Assembly (NCBI RefSeq): GCF_035917275.1
Contig: NZ_CP108509.1
Span: 1,364,001 to 1,428,000 of the forward strand
Direction of reading: 5' to 3'
DNA: 64,000 nucleotides
From: Streptomyces sp. NBC_01237
GTDB taxonomy: Bacteria; Actinomycetota; Actinomycetes; Streptomycetales; Streptomycetaceae
Both the position numbers and the translations under genes were made by a program. Numbering within the stretch: the first letter of the stretch is position 1; the number at the start of each line of letters is the position of its first letter. The notes under the pieces were generated by a model. That model saw only the letters and a program-made list of their open reading frames with translations, was not told the DNA's origin and did no database searches. Positions 32,747 through 42,269 of the stretch are shown piece by piece.

Positions 32747-34096
32747 CTACTTGGCGTTTTCGCGGGCCTTCAGCAACCGGCTGATCTCCTTGACGAGTGC
32801 GGAGTCGTCGGTGACCTCCTTGCCGGAGACCAGCGCGCCCAGGCGCTCGGCGGTCTGGAAGTCGTAGGCGTGCTCCACCTCTTCGTCCGGCACCGCCTCG
32901 TACTCCGCCGCGGCGCGGAATCCGACGGTCAGGTCCACCGCCTTCGCGATGATCCAGGTGAGGATGAAGGAGAACGCGATCACGGCGACGATGGCGACGA
33001 GTTGCCTGCCCAGCAGCCCCCAGCCGCCGCCGTAGAACAGCCCTTCCTTGCCGCTGATGCGCGCGGTGGCGAACAGCCCGACCATGATGAGGCCGATCAG
33101 ACCTCCCACCCCGTGCACGCCGACGACATCCAGGGTGTCGTCCACTCCGAAGCGGTACTTCAGCGTGATGGCGAACGCGCAGACGGCGCCGACGACCAGA
33201 CCCGTGACGACGGCTCCGAGGGTGTTGATCTCTCCACAGGCCGGGGTGATGGCGACCATGCCCGCGACCGCGGAGGAGACGACCCCCATGGTGGTGACGC
33301 GGCCGGTGCGCCATTTCTCCACGAGCGGCCAGGTGACCATGGCGCCCGCGGCGCCGAGCTGGGTGTTCAGGAAGGCGGCCGCCGCGGTGCCCTGGTCGGA
33401 GAGTGCGGAGCCGGAGTTGAAGCCGAACCAGCCGAACCAGAGCAGCGCGACACCGATGACGACGAGCGGGATGTTGTTCGGCCGTTCCCCGCGCCGCGCG
33501 AAGTCACGCGGCGCGCGCAGGACGAGCGCCACCGCGAGGCCCGCGACACCGGAGTTCAGCTCCACCGGCAGCCCGCCGGCGAAGTCGAGTGCCCCGAGGT
33601 GCTTCACGATCCAGCCGTCCGTGTCGAACACCCAGTGCGCGATCGGGATGTAGACGATGAGCAGCCACAGGACGACGAAGACCAGCCAGCCCCTCATCGT
33701 GGCGCGGTCGGCGATCGAGCCGCTGATCAGCGCGACGGTGATGACGGCGAAGCCCATCTGGAACGTGCTGTAGACGTACGTGGGGATGTGACCGGTGAGC
33801 GTGGTCAGCTCGATCCCGCGCATGAACACATGGTCGAGATTGCCGATCACCCCGGCTCCTCCGACATCGGGGCCGAAGGCGAGCGTGTAGCCGATCACCC
33901 ACCAGAGGAGGGTGCCGAAGGCGAGCGCGGCGAAACTCATCTTGATCATCATCAGGACTTGTCTGGTGCGCACCATGCCGCCGTAGAAGAACGCCAGTCC
34001 GGGCGTCATCAGCAGCACCATCGCGGTGGAGGCGAGCAGCCAGGCGGTGTCCCCGGAGTCGTACGCGGGGGGCATCGGCGCGGGAGCGGTGATCAT
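32747..34096 (-). CDS. amt: Ammonium transporter, Amt family
   Basis: The 449-residue membrane protein has the Amt landmarks: DTAWLLASTAMVLLMTPGLA, FFYGGMVRTRQVLMM, the FQMGFAVITVALISGS segment, FAGGLPVELNSGVAGL, LWFGWFGFNSGSAL and VVGVHGVGGLIGLIMVG with pore histidine. It imports NH4+/NH3. ATG 34096 is chosen with GAGG upstream; ATG at residue 8 is possible. It follows ureD by about 110 bases on the same strand, at the end of a urease cluster, so urea-derived or external ammonium could be handled together. No glnK or glnD follows. Confidence 0.95.
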   Translation of the reverse strand: MITAPAPMPPAYDSGDTAWLLASTAMVLLMTPGLAFFYGGMVRTRQVLMMIKMSFAALAFGTLLWWVIGYTLAFGPDVGGAGVIGNLDHVFMRGIELTTLTGHIPTYVYSTFQMGFAVITVALISGSIADRATMRGWLVFVVLWLLIVYIPIAHWVFDTDGWIVKHLGALDFAGGLPVELNSGVAGLAVALVLRAPRDFARRGERPNNIPLVVIGVALLWFGWFGFNSGSALSDQGTAAAAFLNTQLGAAGAMVTWPLVEKWRTGRVTTMGVVSSAVAGMVAITPACGEINTLGAVVTGLVVGAVCAFAITLKYRFGVDDTLDVVGVHGVGGLIGLIMVGLFATARISGKEGLFYGGGWGLLGRQLVAIVAVIAFSFILTWIIAKAVDLTVGFRAAAEYEAVPDEEVEHAYDFQTAERLGALVSGKEVTDDSALVKEISRLLKARENAK

Positions 34097-34205: not shown

Positions 34206-35195
34206 CTACGGTTTGCGCAGATCGGGAGCCGGATGGCCGGTGAGCAGCCGGCGTACGGCGTCCCAGGCGGTGTTCCTCGCGGCGGCGACCCGGATCGGGC
34301 TGTCGTCCAGGAGGCGCACCCAGGCGCCGCACTCCCCGGGCAGCACACTGACGCCGTACAGCAGGCCGAGGTCCGCCAGGGCGTCGTGCAGCGTGTCGGC
34401 GACCTCGGTGGCGGTACTGCGATCGGTGACGACGAAGAGCGAGGCGACATGGTCGTGCCCGGCGAACACACCGGGTCCGAGGACCTCCGCGCGGCCCCGC
34501 CCGCCGCCGGGCGACAGCCGCAGGGTGTCGATGGCCAGCAGTGTGCCGTCGGGGCGGTCGATGCGCAGGTCGGTGGCGAGCACCCGGTAGTCGTGCCGCT
34601 CACCGCGGGCGAGCCGCCCGGCGGTGAGGGTGTCACCGAGGACGACGGTGGCGCCGGGGGCGACCGTCACCTCGGTGCGCTGGTAGAACCGGGCGTCCTT
34701 GAACGGGATCAGGGGGTCCGGGAGGTACTCGACGTAGGAACCCTCCTCCGCCGTGAGGTGCACGCGCTGGCTGGCGTAGTCGTGCTCCATCCGGAAGACC
34801 TTGCTCGCCGCCTGCGTGGTCAGATGCACCTGGGTGCCGGGTCCGCAGCGGAAGTCCATCCGGTAGCGGTCGGCCTGGGCGATGCCGCCGCCGGTGGCCA
34901 TCAGATACACGTAGCTCATGCCCGGCAGCCCGGCATCGATCCACAGCGGCCGCATGATCTGCAGCGGGGTCTTCTGGTAGCGCTCGACCAGCTCCGTGCG
35001 CCCGCCCCGGACGGCGAAACCCAGGTCCAGGATGCCGACCTTGGCCGGTGATCCGGGGGCGAGCGTATCGGGGACGGACGCCAGCGCCGCCACCTCCGGA
35101 GGGACGCGCTCCGCCGTGTAGTACTCCGGCGCGAGCCGGTCGACGGCGGGGCGCGGCAGGGTGGGCGGCAGGGCGGACTCCGGGGCGGGCGGCAC
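34206..35195 (-). CDS. ureD: Urease accessory protein UreD
   Basis: The 329-residue protein has the UreD pattern: SPAKVGILDLGFAVRGGRTE, ATGGGIAQADRYRMDFRCGP, LTTQAASKVFRMEHDYASQR and EYLPDPLIPFKDARFYQRTE. UreD (UreH) is a scaffold that binds apo-urease with UreF and UreG and helps insert nickel and CO2 at the active site. The start is GTG one base after the ureG stop. A Pro-rich 30-residue N-terminal extension precedes the family core. It is the last of the accessory genes. Confidence 0.93.
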   Translation of the reverse strand: MPPAPESALPPTLPRPAVDRLAPEYYTAERVPPEVAALASVPDTLAPGSPAKVGILDLGFAVRGGRTELVERYQKTPLQIMRPLWIDAGLPGMSYVYLMATGGGIAQADRYRMDFRCGPGTQVHLTTQAASKVFRMEHDYASQRVHLTAEEGSYVEYLPDPLIPFKDARFYQRTEVTVAPGATVVLGDTLTAGRLARGERHDYRVLATDLRIDRPDGTLLAIDTLRLSPGGGRGRAEVLGPGVFAGHDHVASLFVVTDRSTATEVADTLHDALADLGLLYGVSVLPGECGAWVRLLDDSPIRVAAARNTAWDAVRRLLTGHPAPDLRKP

Positions 35196-35196
35196 G

Positions 35197-35817
35197 TCAG
35201 ATCAGCACCTTGCGGCGGGACTCCAGATAGCCGGCGATGTCCTCGATGCCGACGCCGGTGAGACAGTCGGTCAGGACGACGGGGCGGTTGTCGCGGACCC
35301 GGTAGGCATCCGATTCCATGATCCCGACGTCGGTGCGCACGTACTTCGCGATGTCGATCTTGTTGATGACGAGCAGATCGGAGTCGGTGATGCCGGGACC
35401 GCGCTTGCGCGGCATCTTCTCGCCCTCGGCCGTGTCCAGGACGAACAGGAAGAGGTCGACCAGGGCGGGGCTGAACGTCAGCGTGAGGTTGTCGCCGCCG
35501 GACTCGTACAACAGCGTGTCCGTGTCCGGGAACCGCTCCAGCATCTCCGCGCCGGCCGCCAGATTCATCGTCGGGTCGTCGCGTACGGCCGTGTGCGGGC
35601 AGGCGCCGGTCTCGACGCCCACCACCCGCTCCGGTTCCAGGACCCCTTCGAGCGTGCGGCGGACGTGCTGCGCGTCCTCCTGGGTGTAGATGTCGTTGGT
35701 GATGACGGAGGGGCGGTGGCCGCGGGCGATGAGCACCGGCACCAGCGCCTCGATGAGGGCGGTCTTGCCGGAGCCGACCGGTCCGCCGATGCCGACCCGC
35801 AGTACGTTGTCGTCCAT
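35197..35817 (-). CDS. ureG: Urease accessory GTPase UreG
   Basis: The 206-residue GTPase has the P-loop GGPVGSGKT, the switch ESGGDNLTLTFSPALVD, the Cys-Pro-His nickel motif in GACPHTAVRDD, and the guanine motif NKIDIAKYV. It hydrolyses GTP to drive nickel transfer into urease, taking nickel from a metallochaperone, normally UreE. The length is typical. A clear AAGGGAG ribosome binding site precedes ATG 35817. The upstream ureF ends 29 bases before it. Confidence 0.97.
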   Translation of the reverse strand: MDDNVLRVGIGGPVGSGKTALIEALVPVLIARGHRPSVITNDIYTQEDAQHVRRTLEGVLEPERVVGVETGACPHTAVRDDPTMNLAAGAEMLERFPDTDTLLYESGGDNLTLTFSPALVDLFLFVLDTAEGEKMPRKRGPGITDSDLLVINKIDIAKYVRTDVGIMESDAYRVRDNRPVVLTDCLTGVGIEDIAGYLESRRKVLI

Positions 35818-35846: not shown

Positions 35847-36662
35847 TCAGCTGGCGAAGAGGCGTGCCTCAGCGCGTTCATGACGGCCCGACATGACGTC
35901 GGAGGCGAAGACGGTGGCGCCGACGTCGGCGAGTTCGCGCCGCAGCGCCTCCTCGGCCACGCGCTCGATGACGGGGGCGGCCCCCCGCAACAGGCTCTGG
36001 GCCCTGCGGTGGTCGGTCAGGCGCAGCCGCAGGGCCGCTCCGGCGAAGCTGGCGCAGAACGCGAACAGGTCACAGGCGACGGCCTGCCGGACCGGGACCC
36101 CGGTCGCGGCGTAGATGACCCCGGCGGCGACCGCCTGGGTGCCGGGTGCCCCATGACGCCGGACCCGGTCGAAGTACGCGGTGATCGGCGGGCGGTCGAA
36201 CACCTCCGCCGCCAGGTCGAGGAGCTGTCGCCCGGTCCTGGTGGACGCCTGGCGCATCTCCCGGCCCAGTTTGGTCGCGTACAGGTGCGCGTCCACACCC
36301 GCCACCGCGTCCAGGTCCCCTTCCGCCGTCGCCCGGTGGGCGAGGGCCAGCGCCGTGGCGTCCGCCGGACCGACGCCGTGCAGCAGCAGGTCCCGCAGGA
36401 GCGACGGCAAACTGCCGGAATCGACGGCTCCGGCGTGGGCGAACCCCTCCAGACTGTGCGACAGCGTGTAGAAGCCACTGGGGAACGCCGAGTCGGTCAG
36501 CTGGAGACCGACCAGCAGGGGCCCCAGATCGGGCCCGGTCCGGGCGGTCGGGCCGGTACCGTTCCCGGCACCGTTTCCCCGGCCGTTCCCGCCGCCGGAC
36601 ACGGCCTGGGGCAGGGCGACGGCAGCCTGGATCCCGCGGTGCTCGTCCTCGTTGCGGTACAT
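35847..36662 (-). CDS. ureF: Urease accessory protein UreF
   Basis: The 271-residue protein carries the family core LLVGLQLTDSAFPSGFYTLS HSLEGF and continues through an all-helical domain to a polar C-terminus. UreF forms the UreD-UreF-UreG complex and acts as a fidelity checkpoint or tunnel for nickel delivery. An N-terminal extension of about 45 residues is rich in Gly and Asn (SGGGNGRGNGAGNGTG), longer than usual. It begins two bases after the ureC stop. Confidence 0.93.
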   Translation of the reverse strand: MYRNEDEHRGIQAAVALPQAVSGGGNGRGNGAGNGTGPTARTGPDLGPLLVGLQLTDSAFPSGFYTLSHSLEGFAHAGAVDSGSLPSLLRDLLLHGVGPADATALALAHRATAEGDLDAVAGVDAHLYATKLGREMRQASTRTGRQLLDLAAEVFDRPPITAYFDRVRRHGAPGTQAVAAGVIYAATGVPVRQAVACDLFAFCASFAGAALRLRLTDHRRAQSLLRGAAPVIERVAEEALRRELADVGATVFASDVMSGRHERAEARLFAS

Positions 36663-36664
36663 CG

Positions 36665-38389
36665 CTAGACCAGGAAGAACAGGTGGTTGAGGGGCAGTTC
36701 CTCGGCCGGGTCGATCGTCGCGACCTTGCCGTCGAGGGTGACCTTGAACGTCTCCGGGTCGACCTGGATGTCCGGCAGGGCGCTGTTGCGCACCATGTTG
36801 TGCTTGCCGATCGTGCGGGTGCCGCGCACCGGAAGGATCTTGCGCTCCAGGCCGAGCTCCGACGGCACCCCGGCGGCGATTCCCGCCTGCGACATGAAGG
36901 TGACGTGGGTCGCCGGCAACGCCTTGCCGAACTGCCCGAACATCGGCCGGTAGATGACCGGTTGCGGCGTCGGCAGCGAGGCGTTCGGGTCGCCCATCTG
37001 CGCCCAGGAGATGATCCCGCCCTTGATGACCATCTTCGGCTTGGCCCCGAAGGAATGGATGGGCCAGAGCACGATGTCGGCGATCTTGCCCTTCTCCAGG
37101 GAGCCGATGTGGTCGGCGATGCCCGTCGCGATGGCCGGGTTGATGGTGACCTTCGCGAGGTAGCGCAGTACCCGCTGGTTGTCGTTGCGGGCGGAGTCGC
37201 CCTCCAGGATGCCGAGCTTGTCCTTGCAGTGGTGCGCGGTCTGGAAGGCGCGCGTCACCGACTCGCCGACGCGGCCCATGGCCTGCGAGTCGGAGGAGAA
37301 CATGCTGATCACACCGAGATCGTGGAGGACCGACTCGGCGGCGATCGTCTCGGCGCGGACCCGGCTGTCGGCGAAGGACACGTCCTCGGGGATGTCATGG
37401 CTGAGGTGGTGACAGACCATGACCATGTCGAGGAGTTCGTCGACGGAGTTCTTGGTGTACGGCAGCGTCGGGTTGGTGGAGGACGGCAGGATGTTGGGCT
37501 CGCCCGCCACCCGCATGATGTCCGGGGCGTGACCGCCGCCCGCGCCCTCGCTGTGGAACGTGTGGATCGCACGTCCGTCGATCGCGGAGCGGGTGTCCTC
37601 GAAGAAGCCGCTCTCGTTCAGGCTGTCGGTGTGGATGGAGACCTGGACGTCGTAGCGGTCCGCGACATTGAGCGCGTTGTCGATGACGGCCGGGGTGGCG
37701 CCCCAGTCCTCGTGGACCTTCAGGGCGCAGGCTCCGGCTTCGATCTGCTCGTCCAGGGCCTCGGGCAGACTGCCGTTGCCCTTGCCCATGATGCCCAGGT
37801 TCACCGGCCAGCCCTCGGCCGCCTGGAGGAACCGGGCGATGTTGTAGGGGCCGGGGGTGCAGGTGGTGCCGTTGGTGCCGTCCGAGGGACCGGTGCCGCC
37901 ACCGATGAGCGTGGTGATGCCGTTGGTCAGCGCCTGTTCGGCCTGTTGCGGGGCGATCAGATGGACATGGGAGTCGATGGCCCCGGCGGTGGCGATGAGG
38001 TGTTCACCCGCGATGGCCTCGGTCCCCGGGCCGATGACGAGGTTCGGGTCGACGTTGTTCTGCGTCTGCGGGTTGCCGGACTTGCCGATCCCGGCGATCA
38101 TCCCGTTCTTGATGCCGATGTCACATTTCACGACGCCCACCATCGGGTCGATGACCACGACATTGGTGATGACGGTGTCGAGCGCGCCCTGGGCGCTGGT
38201 GGCCTGCGGGGAGGCGGCCATGCCGTCGCGCATGGTCTTGCCGCCGCCGTAGAGGACTTCGTCGCCGTACTGGCCCTCGCTGAAGTCCTTCTCGACCTCG
38301 ACGACGAGGTTGGTGTCGGCGAGGTGGAAGCGGTCGCCGACCGTCGGGCCGAACATGTCGGTGTACTGCTTGCGGGGCAGGATGGGCAT
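36665..38389 (-). CDS. ureC: Urease alpha subunit UreC
   Basis: The 574-residue catalytic subunit hydrolyses urea to ammonia and carbamate at a nickel pair. Seen are [12 protein letters not shown] (two nickel histidines), [12 protein letters not shown] with the lysine carbamylated in the family, [13 protein letters not shown] and [13 protein letters not shown] (metal histidines), [12 protein letters not shown] with flap cysteine and catalytic histidine, and [11 protein letters not shown] (metal aspartate). The flap [12 protein letters not shown] differs from the common CHHLDPSIPED-type sequence. Start ATG overlaps the ureB stop by one base (TGATG). Confidence 0.97.
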
Positions 38390-39036
38390 CAGCGCGAACC
38401 CTTCTTCTTGGCCTTCGCGCTCTTGGCGCTCGGCGTGCTCTTGGCGCTCTTCGGGCTCGGCGTGCTCTTGGCGCTCTTCGGGCTCGGCGCACCGGCAGCG
38501 CTCTTCGGACCCGGCGCGGGCTTGGCGCTTCGGGGACTCGGAGCGGGCTTGGCTTTCTTCGGACCCGGCGCGGGCTTGGCGCTCCGTCCGCTCGGCGCGC
38601 TCTTCGGGCCCGCCCTGCCGCGCGGACTCTTCGCACGGGGGGAGACCATTGCTTTCGGGGGCTGGTCGGCGCCCTGGAAACCCTGCTCGATCGCCTTGCG
38701 GACGGCCTCGACCTTGGCCGGGTGGGAAGCGAGGCTGCCGTTGAGCAGTCCGCTGAAGCCGACCAGGCGGCCCGTTCCGGCGTACGCGCAGAGTTCGACC
38801 TCGCGCGAACCGCCGGGTTCGATCCGTACGGAGGTGCCCGCCGGGATGTTGAGGTGCATGCCCAGGGCCGCCTGCCGGTCGAACGACAGCGCGGAGTTCA
38901 CCTCGAAGAAGTGGTAGTGGGACCCGACCTGGACCGCGCGGTCGCCGGTGTTGCTGACGGTGAGCGTCACCGTGCGGCGCCCGGCGTTGATCTCGACGGG
39001 GTCCTCGCCGTAGATGTACTTCTGTCGGAACGTCAT
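38389..39036 (-). CDS. ureB: Urease beta subunit UreB with unusual basic Lys/Ala/Pro/Ser tail
   Basis: Residues 1 to about 110 form an ordinary Ure[41 protein letters not shown] and [20 protein letters not shown]. After about residue 130 comes an 85-residue tail of repeated KPAPGPKSA / [13 protein letters not shown] units with no acidic residues, resembling the C-terminal domain of histone H1 or HupS-like proteins. Normal UreB proteins end near residue 100-130. The ATG overlaps the chelatase stop as ATGA. The tail could bind nucleic acid, polyanions or another protein; nothing about it is known. Confidence 0.93.
38400..38640 (-). repeat. Degenerate tandem repeat encoding the UreB tail
   Basis: Repeats of roughly 27 bases around the plus-strand core CTCTTCGGGCTCGGCG run through the 3' third of ureB and encode the KSAKxTPSP / KPAPxP units. 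Copies vary, so this is an older, diverged array, most regular at about 38430-38500. Confidence 0.6.
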
Positions 39037-39896
39037 GCGGAGCTCCTGAGAACGTGGCCCGCGCCGAGGGTCTGCGGGTGCGGGTGCTCGTGAAGGTGGT
39101 CGTGACCGTGGTCGTGCCCGTGGCCTGCGGCGTGACCGTGGCCCGGTGCGTGCTCGTGGCCCGTGCCGGGCGGGTGGGTGTGGTGGTGGCCGTGGTTGTC
39201 GGCCGCGCCCAGTCCGGCGGCGATGCCGTCGTCGCCGCGCTCGTGCCGGCGCCGCAGGGCGTCGGCGGCCCGTTCGGCGAGCACGCGGCGCAGTGCGGAG
39301 CGCGCCAGCGGCGGACCGGCGACGGCGACCTGTGCGTCCGGTACATCGGGGGCCTCGGGCACCACGAAGGCGGCCGGCAGCACCACCACCCGTGCGGCGC
39401 CCAGGGACACACAGCGCCGGACTCCCTGCGCGAGGCCGGGATCACCACCGGTGAGGGCCACTTCGACCAGCGCGTGGTTGCCGTAGCTCCGTACGAGACT
39501 GGCGACGCGGTACAGCTCCGCGTCCTCGAACGGGCCACCGGACGGCGCCGTGACGAGCAGTGCGTCGGCGGTGGGCACCCGGCGCGCGGCGCCCCGCAGC
39601 CAGCCGACGAGGTGCTGTGCGGTACCGAAGGGTTCGGCGAGGACCGTCCCGGCCCGCTCCTCGTCGGGTACCGCCCGCAGGGTGCGCGCCGTCTCGGCGA
39701 CGAGTTCGGGGTCGCGCCCGAGCGTCATCGGTACGACACAGCTCGCCTCGCCCCGGCGGCTCAGCCCGACGACGGTCCGGAACAGCTCCCGCCCGTTCGG
39801 CACCACGATCACGTCCGGGCCGCCCAGCTCCGCCGACGCCCGTCCGTACGCCGCCTCGTGACCGCAGACGGCGATCACCCGGCACCGCTCGGCCAC
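39033..39896 (-). CDS. CbiX-like sirohydrochlorin-type chelatase with His-rich nickel-binding tail, in the urease operon
   Basis: The 287-residue protein has two CbiX-like halves (start [20 protein letters not shown], then [20 protein letters not shown]; second half [20 protein letters not shown]) followed from about residue 230 by a tail with 18 histidines in about 50 residues ([22 protein letters not shown]). The tail resembles that of UreE-type nickel metallochaperones. It lies between ureA and ureB and starts at GTG 39896, ending as ATGA over ureB. No ureE is visible, so it may store or deliver nickel to UreG. A porphyrinoid-chelatase role is also possible. Function is inferred. Confidence 0.85.
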
Positions 39897-39901
39897 CGGG
39901 G

Positions 39902-40207
39902 TCAGCCGCCGATGGGGTCGTGGCAGGAGACGAGCTTCGTACCGTCGACGAAGGACGCCTCGACCTGGAGCAGGCCGAGCATGTCGCGTACGCCGGGCAT
40001 CGTGTCGTCCTCGCCGACGACGTGGCGGCCGAGTTCCATGCAGTCGGCCACGCTCCTTCCGTCGCGGGCGGCTTCGAGGATCGCCTCGGTGATCAGCGCC
40101 ACCGACTCGCTGTAGTTGAGCTTGAGACCGCGGCCCTGGCGTTTGCGGGCCAGGTCGGCCACGACGTACACCAACAGCTTGTCGATCTCGCGGGGAGCGA
40201 GGTTCAT
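39902..40207 (-). CDS. ureA: Urease gamma subunit UreA
   Basis: The 101-residue subunit matches UreA throughout: MNLAPREIDKLLVYVVADLA, GLKLNYSESVALITEAILEA, RDGRSVADCMELGRHVV and a C-terminal VSCHDPIGG. It forms the UreABC heterotrimer, the urease structural core. ATG 40207 is chosen because GAGGAAGG lies seven bases upstream; the longer frame to 40240 is not family-like. It is the first urease gene after the urea transporter gene (52-base gap). Confidence 0.97.
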   Translation of the reverse strand: MNLAPREIDKLLVYVVADLARKRQGRGLKLNYSESVALITEAILEAARDGRSVADCMELGRHVVGEDDTMPGVRDMLGLLQVEASFVDGTKLVSCHDPIGG

Positions 40208-40259: not shown

Positions 40260-41228
40260 TCAGTCGTTCGGACGGAAGCGCGGGAGAAGTGGCACGGCGG
40301 CCATGAGGACCCAGGTCGTGAGGATGAACGGCCAGGTGAAGGTGTGGCCGCCGAAGGGTTTGAACAGGGAGGTCAGGGAAGCCGTCAGCCCGGTGGTGGC
40401 CGCCGCTCCGAACAGCGCGTACGCCCCGTTCCAGACGGTGCCCGTCAGGAAGACCGCGCCGACCGCGATGGCCACGAGGACCGCGTTGTAGCCGTAGATT
40501 CCGTTGGCGATCAGATCGGCGGGGGCGCCGAGCGCCCATCCGGTGAAGATGCCGACGACGCTGCCCGCAGCGGCGAACAGGACCACGCGCACCCCGGCGA
40601 TTGCCAGGCCCACGAGCATGATGAGCCCGACGTACCACTCGTCGATCAGGAAGACCTGAGCGACGTTGGTGAAGAACGCGTGCCACAGGTCGTCCCAGGA
40701 CAGTCCGGTATCCCCCGCGGTCGTGCTGGACACCTGCGCCGGGGCGCCGTGCCAGATCCGGCCGAAGGAGGGTGCCCCGAGCACCATGACGCCGGAGACC
40801 AGGCAGAAGGGCGCGGTGAGCGGGGTGAGTCCGCAGGGGGCGAGGAACGTGGTGAGGGCCGCCATGAGGAGCACGCACATGATGGCGCCGACGACGGTGA
40901 GTACATAGGTGGCCGGGTGGTGGCCCAGCGAGGTGACGAGGGCGATGCCGGTGAGAGCTCCGCAGTAGCCCTGGAGGCCCTGGGCGATTCCCGAGCGATC
41001 CACGCCGAGGGCATAGGCGGTCGCGGTGGCGAACAGGGTACCGAGGGTGGCGAAGAGGCCCGCCTCCCAGCCCGCCGCCCACAGCGCGAGAAGGATGACC
41101 GCACCGGTCCACGCTCCGGGCTGGAGGTCCACCTGACCGACTCCGCGCACCGAGGCGAGTAAGTACGACAGGGGCTGCGGCTGCGGCGCCTTCGGCTTGT
41201 GACGCTCTTGCGCTTCGGCGGACGGCAC
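40260..41228 (-). CDS. Urea transporter (UT family channel)
   Basis: This membrane protein of about 322 residues has a short polar N-terminus and about ten helices. It shows the UT family pattern of two repeats: LFATLGTLFATATAYALGVD, GLQGYCGALTGIALV in the first, and GIYGYNAVLVAIAVGAVFL, NGAYALFGAAATTGLTAS in the second. Such channels let urea pass in both directions. GTG at 41228 is chosen because CGGAG lies seven bases before it; the ATG starts upstream up to 41438 have no ribosome binding site and add non-family sequence. It leads directly into ureA, so urea uptake and hydrolysis are co-regulated. Confidence 0.9.
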   Translation of the reverse strand: MPSAEAQERHKPKAPQPQPLSYLLASVRGVGQVDLQPGAWTGAVILLALWAAGWEAGLFATLGTLFATATAYALGVDRSGIAQGLQGYCGALTGIALVTSLGHHPATYVLTVVGAIMCVLLMAALTTFLAPCGLTPLTAPFCLVSGVMVLGAPSFGRIWHGAPAQVSSTTAGDTGLSWDDLWHAFFTNVAQVFLIDEWYVGLIMLVGLAIAGVRVVLFAAAGSVVGIFTGWALGAPADLIANGIYGYNAVLVAIAVGAVFLTGTVWNGAYALFGAAATTGLTASLTSLFKPFGGHTFTWPFILTTWVLMAAVPLLPRFRPND

Positions 41229-41427
41229 GAACAGCTCCGTAACTCGGCAGGGGACCCGGCGGCGCTGCCACCGCCCGACAGCAGGCGAGACAACCGATGC
41301 CAGATATATCCCATATGCATACTTTCGCTCCACCGGGGAGGCGGCCCGGTCCACCGTCGGAGTGAGAGCGCCGGGCGCGGCCGTCCGCCGCACGCACATC
41401 GCGGGCAGGGCCTCATACGGTCCCCGG
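41229..41427. promoter_or_regulatory. Divergent promoter region between urea transporter and crcB genes
   Basis: These 199 bases contain an AT-rich island for this genome at about 41303-41325 with two palindromes, GATATATC and TATGCATA, a plausible promoter/operator for the urease block transcribed leftward. GlnR-type sites could be expected for nitrogen control but no clear GTnAC-N6-GAAAC match is seen. No fluoride riboswitch could be recognised. Confidence 0.4.
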
Positions 41428-41895
41428 ATGTCTCTCAAGTCCCTTTTGCTCGAACACCGTCACCCCGATCACGCCCCCGGGAGACAGGTCCCGGTGGTCG
41501 CCGCCGTCGCCGTCGGCGGGGCCGTCGGCGCCGGGGCGCGTTACTGGGCGGAGCGCCTGTGGCCGAACGGGGAGTCGTCCTTCCCGTGGACCGTCCTGCT
41601 GATCAACGCCGTGGGCTGCCTGCTCATGGGCGTCCTGATGGTGGCCCTCAAGGAACGGTTCACCGGCGCCGCCGCGCTCCTGGGCCCACTGCTGGGCACC
41701 GGCATGCTCGGCGGCTTCACCACGTTCTCCCACTACACGGACGATGTGCGGCAGCTGTTCGAGGAAGGCTCGCCGGGCTACGCGATCGGCTGCCTGGTCC
41801 TCACCGTGGTCGCGGCCCTCGCGGGCGTGACCGTGGGCGCGTTCGCCACACACGCGGCACTGGGCCGCCGGAACACCTCCGGGGGGACGGCGTGA
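41428..41895 (+). CDS. crcB: Fluoride channel Fluc/CrcB, first subunit
   Basis: The 155-residue four-helix membrane protein has the CrcB landmarks GGAVGAGARYWAERLW, NAVGCLLMGVLMV, and GTGMLGGFTTFSHYTDDVRQ with the phenylalanine/threonine filter region. Fluc channels export fluoride as dual-topology dimers; actinobacteria and many Gram-positives use two different subunits. The ATG at 41428 is preferred over the longer frame from 41362. The stop TGA overlaps the start of the second crcB gene. Confidence 0.93.
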   Translation: MSLKSLLLEHRHPDHAPGRQVPVVAAVAVGGAVGAGARYWAERLWPNGESSFPWTVLLINAVGCLLMGVLMVALKERFTGAAALLGPLLGTGMLGGFTTFSHYTDDVRQLFEEGSPGYAIGCLVLTVVAALAGVTVGAFATHAALGRRNTSGGTA

Positions 41896-42269
41896 TGCTC
41901 GACTGGCTCCTCGTCATGGCCGGGGGCCTGGTGGGCGCCCCGGTCCGCTATCTCACCGGTGTCGTGGTCAAGGCGCATACGCACTCGGCCTTCCCCTACG
42001 GCACCCTCGCGGCGAACGCGCCCGCCGCCCTGCTCCTGGGTTTCTTCGCCGAGGCCGCGTCCGACGGCGATCTGGGGTCCCGGGTCCATCTGCTGGTCGC
42101 CACCGGGTTCTGCGGTGCGCTGTCGACCTGGTCGACCTTCTCGTACGAGCTGCTGACCCTGGCCTCCACACGTCGCGTCGCCACGGCCGGCGCCTATCTG
42201 TCCGTCAGCGTCGGGGCGGGTGTGGGGCTGTCCTTCGCCGGGGCCGCCCTGGCCCGCGCGGCCTGGTGA
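41895..42269 (+). CDS. crcB: Fluoride channel Fluc/CrcB, second subunit
   Basis: The 124-residue protein has GGLVGAPVRYLTGVVVKAHT, FPYGTLAANAPAALLLGFF and VATGFCGALSTWSTFSYELL, the Fluc signatures including the GxxxRY and ASTFSYE motifs. It overlaps the first crcB stop by one base (TGATG). The two gene products should form an antiparallel heterodimer in the plasma membrane, giving fluoride resistance. A strong hairpin terminator follows its stop. Confidence 0.93.
   Translation: MLDWLLVMAGGLVGAPVRYLTGVVVKAHTHSAFPYGTLAANAPAALLLGFFAEAASDGDLGSRVHLLVATGFCGALSTWSTFSYELLTLASTRRVATAGAYLSVSVGAGVGLSFAGAALARAAW

Follow-up and report, generated by a model that had tools for sequence, protein, structure and literature searches.

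A CbiX-related protein with a histidine-rich tail may stand in for UreE in one clade of actinobacterial ureases

The nickel supply of ureases whose operons lack ureE is often an open question, and it is raised again by a urease cluster in the window analysed here, a stretch of 64,000 nucleotides from Streptomyces sp. NBC_01237, in which a gene encoding a chelatase-like protein with a histidine-rich tail, hereafter X, stands between ureA and ureB (Table 1). Its place between these genes, the ATGA overlap with ureB, the two-half CbiX-like domain and the tail with 18 histidines, all of them described in the first-pass annotation, were confirmed. The fold of X is that of the class II chelatases (SirB/CbiX/CfbA), with two alpha/beta lobes like those of SirB. 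Its database homologues are named sirohydrochlorin chelatase or CbiX and a few of them carry the Pfam CbiX label (PF01903), for which X itself scores 16.4 bits, below the curated cut-off of 22; neither of the UreE profiles, UreE_N and UreE_C, matches X at E <= 1. An AGGAGC encoded at the 3' end of the tail, immediately ahead of ureB, might, on inspection by eye, be a ribosome site. Based on the comparisons given below, we consider it probable that X is a nickel-holding accessory protein derived from CbiX-L, itself probably non-catalytic, which stands in for UreE.

Table 1. The urease cluster around X, in positions of the window
Feature	Positions	Strand	Remarks
UT urea transporter	40260..41438	-	cluster head; start codon uncertain
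ureA (gamma subunit)	39902..40207	-	ATG start likely, within a longer ORF reaching 40240
X, class II chelatase fold in two halves, with His-rich tail	39033..39896	-	287 aa
GHE motif of X, residues 12-14	39855..39863	-	His13 is the sole chelatase His left
GR of X, residues 60-61	39714..39719	-	invariant in 240/240 homologues
His-rich tail of X, residues 232-287	39036..39203	-	18 His; low-confidence/disordered from residue 236
ureB (beta subunit)	38389..39036	-	ATGA overlap with X
Lys/Arg-rich C-terminal tail of UreB	38389..38721	-	110 aa; 27 K/R, 3 D/E
ureC (alpha subunit)	36665..38389	-	nickel-ligand motifs intact, at the residues that we take to be the ligands
ureF	35847..36662	-	
ureG	35197..35817	-	without His stretch; start MDDNVL; CPH motif retained
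ureD	34206..35195	-	
Amt ammonium transporter	32747..34096	-	cluster end; start codon uncertain

The proposal that X was adopted as a nickel metallochaperone had first been argued from the absence of ureE from the cluster. This absence was borne out, and it extends to the whole genome, in which neither the UreE_N nor the UreE_C profile found a match, but a cluster without ureE is nothing special, since the 150 genomes sampled from the genus gave no UreE_N match, with a urease alpha subunit present in 143. Likewise, in a sample of 345 genomes of the class UreE_N occurred in 7 (6 above the cut-off) and urease alpha in 156, most of the urease-bearing genomes thus being without ureE, and in the same sample X (4 genomes with a strong match) and UreE (6 or 7) are both too rare for an anti-correlation between them, the check suggested in the first-pass annotation, to be informative. 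The proposal is therefore not carried by the missing ureE, and its support comes instead from the histidines of UreG, as set out below. HypA was considered as another possible nickel donor, but no match to it was found in the window genome. This genome has five urease-alpha matches and holds at least three further ureA-B-C-G clusters (L089, L090 and L091), with neither X nor UreE and with a histidine-bearing UreG.

At E <= 1e-3 a first search for homologues of X returned 264 matches; of the 120 listed, those with names belong to Streptomyces and close kin. A second search, with two divergent members as queries, returned 596 at E <= 1e-6, among the 120 listed of which are Streptosporangium, Nocardioides, Cellulomonas, Actinomadura, Kitasatospora and others, while the remainder may contain other chelatases. 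Strong matches were present in 12 of the 150 genomes of the genus (13 loci), with 8 more showing weak matches only, and in the class sample 50 genomes had weak matches only. These weak matches were set aside: those of the genus comprise five canonical-type CbiX (L018-L021 and L023) and three loci without a CbiX match (L022, L024 and L025), and the 16 loci inspected among the 50 of 54 matched genomes of the class were all canonical-type CbiX. Of the five from the genus, four (L018, L019, L021 and L023) are two-lobe CbiX paralogues in other genomes of the genus which also deviate at the catalytic positions, L018 retaining a His tail. The 13 loci of the genus sample, 5 from a contig search and those of G464 and G452 from the class sample make up 20 distinct strong loci, at all of which ureA adjoins X, and ureB lies on the other flank at all 18 whose sequence continues. 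In G116 and G147 the gene is broken across two contigs, one piece accompanied by ureA and the other by ureB. The linkage to urease was counted at these 20 loci, homologues such as those of Cellulomonas, Nocardioides and Actinomadura being known from the protein database only. A locus on a plasmid of Embleya sp. NBC_00896 (L208) looks like a decaying X-type urease locus, in which UT and ureA fragments are followed by X and ureB and no ureC, ureF, ureG or ureD was found in the 14.5 kb fetched; it was left out of the UreG counts and included among the 20 X loci compared for the UreB tail. The X operon is not constant within the species of the window genome, as another genome of that species (G019) carries urease clusters (L097 and L098) but lacks both a match to X and a UreC of the X type.

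The hhalign alignment of X with CbiX-L spans both lobes (probability 98.9 for the one from residue 34 and 98.6 for that from residue 1), and X has in common with this cobaltochelatase of cobalamin synthesis (e.g. that of Bacillus megaterium), as PMC7689651 describes it, the bilobal class II fold, the first catalytic histidine and a C-terminal His-rich tail. From this likeness we infer descent of X from CbiX-L rather than from another chelatase, the bilobal fold and the tail presumably having been kept. Canonical actinobacterial CbiX-L proteins contain both catalytic histidines, the conserved glutamate, an MNCDSC-type motif and a His tail, and M260, C262 and C265 are nearly invariant in the 14 that were aligned. 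The catalytic pair of the class II sirohydrochlorin chelatases, taken as 10/76 in SirB, 9/75 in CfbA and 14/79 in CbiX-L, is incomplete in X. Among 240 homologues, the 120 top-ranking ones from each search, the first catalytic histidine (His13) is conserved in 228, Glu14 in 238, G60 and R61 in all 240 and His95 in 239, and none has a histidine at the second catalytic position. The corresponding histidine of CbiX-L aligns with residue 64, which is Glu in the X of the window and Glu in 95, Thr in 46, Gly in 33, Val in 26 and other residues in the rest of the homologues; the confidence of hhalign is low near this residue, yet only one of the 240 has any histidine within residues 58-68, and this one is two residues off the second catalytic position. 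All 240 have Ala at residue 117 in the other lobe, and 3 have His at residue 118. Nor does any of the 240 contain a C-x-x-C after residue 180, in contrast to CbiX-L, in which the MxCxxC of the Fe-S motif follows the second lobe; X further differs from CbiX-L in reading GHE instead of GHG and in its location in a urease operon. In SirB and CfbA, the sirohydrochlorin ferro- and nickelochelatases, the metal is bound by the catalytic histidine pair (including His76 and His75, respectively), according to PMC11301274; of these two metal-binding histidines X has one, the canonical glutamate falls in an alignment gap, and X has an additional disordered His tail.

Having lost both its second catalytic histidine and the Fe-S motif, X is probably no longer a chelatase. 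Nevertheless, the loss of the second histidine alone is no proof of inactivity, since the heme ferrochelatase HemH is functional with a glutamate replacing one histidine (PMC7689651). An X still active in producing a nickel or cobalt tetrapyrrole, which would also agree with the class II fold, with the catalytic histidine left in 228 homologues and with the names given by the databases, seems highly improbable, as the second catalytic position is never occupied by histidine and has no fixed glutamate, no tetrapyrrole gene was found in the operon and two further CbiX-type genes, both complete, are present in the window genome. The nickel tetrapyrrole offered as an alternative in the first-pass annotation is weakened by the same missing histidine.

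With regard to the tail, PMC7689651 reports that cobalt insertion by CbiX-L is unaffected by deleting the Fe-S and His-rich region, for which a role in the storage and delivery of metal was proposed. Since X has lost the second catalytic histidine while the CbiX-L tail is proposed to store and deliver, X looks like a chelatase that has retained the storage half of the job. The tails of its homologues hold a median of 17 and 12 histidines in the two lists and fewer than 8 in 7 of the 240; they may be merely inherited, because the parent CbiX-L family has His tails too. A His-rich C-terminal tail is found in many UreE proteins. UreE and X both belong to urease operons and in both cases the adjacent UreG is without a His stretch, but X has a chelatase fold in place of the UreE domains. 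We hypothesize that the tail of X would gather nickel and offer it to UreG.

According to Haas et al. (PMC2770081), UreG bears a His stretch in all but two of the ureE-less genomes that they examined. The UreG of X operons is expected to be without one if its role is taken over by X. In order to compare them, 19 operons with X, 3 operons without X whose UreC falls in the same clade, 6 with UreE and 57 with neither were fetched, the 57 comprising 9 obtained in passing (two from the species of the window) and 48 sampled by taking alternate entries among the first 96 of the UreC list, one per genome, leaving out genomes with a strong X and the six with UreE above the cut-off and keeping G218, whose UreE_N match is below it. 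As ureG is missing from the fetched stretch in 12 of the 57, 45 were counted, and 73 operons with ureG were compared in total. No histidine was found in the N-terminal extension of UreG in any of the 19 X operons, L093 having a single one in the C-terminal part, nor in the extension in any of the 6 UreE operons. In contrast, all 45 UreGs of operons with neither have at least 2 histidines in the N- plus C-terminal extensions (44 have at least 3), which lie in the N-extension in 39 of them and, in the other 6, in a C-terminal stretch containing 6 or more, and the three X-less operons of the X clade have HHH-type UreG N-termini. The UreG start is as predicted throughout except for one of these three (L139), for which the script chose a shorter start and histidines were counted from upstream residues with the start set by hand; in certain UreGs the C-terminal part counted includes some of the core, as the local alignment ended early. 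At a threshold of 2 histidines, chosen after the counts were known, a histidine-bearing UreG accompanies 48 of 48 operons without X or UreE and 0 of 25 with either. A nickel donor would be expected where ureE is absent and UreG carries no His stretch, and it is there that X was found (19/19, against 48/48 His-bearing UreGs where X and UreE are both missing). The fewest histidines (2) belong to L190 of G218, counted as having neither, whose genome has the sub-cut-off UreE_N match elsewhere (22.6 vs 26.9 bits). The same division is seen inside the window genome, where the UreG of the X operon has no stretch and the UreGs of the three other clusters do.

Of 120 UreGs listed as near to the X-less type, 16 fall in the His-extension clade, and 15 of these have at least 4 histidines in the N-extension, the sixteenth being annotated shorter; 101 of the other 104, a minority of them with a known operon context, have one at most. 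The exceptions are P0137 and P0177, with 2 each, and P0215, with 4, which could also start internally at MDDNVL. Eight putative shared contigs of more than 5 kb were found for X and UreG entries (120 listed each), none of them with the 16 UreGs of the His-extension clade. Like the His-stretch UreG of operons without ureE (PMC2770081), X operons appear to answer the same need with a His-rich segment, placed in their case on a separate protein of chelatase fold, and X would accordingly fill the slot taken elsewhere by UreE or by the His stretch of UreG.

A second feature of X operons is a basic C-terminal tail of UreB. In the window it consists of Lys/Ser/Pro repeats, PSPKSAK-like, and its length is very variable among X operons. 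Basic repeat tails of this kind recall those of DNA-binding proteins. The UreB tail is net positive at all 20 X loci, Embleya included (median 57 residues, net charge +9.5, lowest +3), while in the three X-less sisters it has 30-44 residues and a net charge of -1 or -2; its median length is 13 residues in UreE operons and 0 in the 57 others, a minority of whose tails were read individually. The X-less branch hence differs threefold, having no X, no basic UreB tail and a His stretch on UreG, and this joint change points to a functional unit, albeit as one event. It is quite possible, and we put it forward tentatively, that X acts together with the basic UreB tail as a two-part nickel-loading module, in which the catalysis-stripped fold, by now a true metallochaperone, would dock on the urease apoprotein via the UreB tail and pass nickel to UreG, a convergent replacement of UreE on an unrelated fold, confined to one urease clade and exchanged in one branch for the His stretch of UreG.

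In the UreC tree, 17 sequences (14 with X and 3 without) form one clade at 100/100, X apparently belonging to a single deep clade of actinobacterial ureases. The X-less UreCs are nested beside an X-bearing group (96/94; next deeper fork 90/88), and for this reason a single loss of X is the simplest history, which in turn suggests that X is dispensable where UreG bears a His stretch. Mapped on a tree of the 73 operons, the presence of a donor (X or UreE) changes twice and the UreG stretch changes twice, both times in opposite directions; with only two independent changes, significance is out of reach of a sign test (p 0.5). This small number is what might be expected if X, the UreB tail and the short UreG had been co-inherited in one operon clade as functionally unrelated by-standers of a lineage. 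We regard such a history as very unlikely, for the X-less sisters changed X, the UreB tail and the UreG stretch together while their UreG remained 77-79% identical to that of the window, and the state of UreG in UreE operons is the same as in X operons.

The main rival to a nickel donor standing in for UreE is a reservoir or detoxification sink that holds nickel passively for the urease operon and never meets UreG. Hpn of Helicobacter is regarded as a nickel reservoir or sink. A store of this kind would suit a tail that is His-rich, disordered and of variable content (4 to 40 histidines among the best 120 of the first search), His-rich nickel-binding proteins of Helicobacter being on record (PMC4671568), and the complementarity with the UreG stretch is expected as well if both are stores. 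Nevertheless, the strong conservation of the core of X at Glu14, G60-R61 and His95 goes beyond the needs of a bare tail, and the fixed ureA-X-ureB order together with a basic UreB tail absent where X is absent suggests a protein partner, which makes a mere reservoir rather unlikely.

In the portions of text returned by a PMC full-text search, no description of an X-type gene in a urease operon was found. X suggests that another protein fold has been recruited to supply nickel, in a genus, Streptomyces, that can be manipulated, and a family that sources name as a cobalamin or siroheme chelatase is marked out. A simple comparative rule, that an operon has X, UreE or a His stretch on UreG, may be applied across all ureases. 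Beside the head of the window cluster, on the forward strand, two neighbouring small membrane-protein ORFs (41362-42269) resemble, by eye, a CrcB/Fluc fluoride channel pair.
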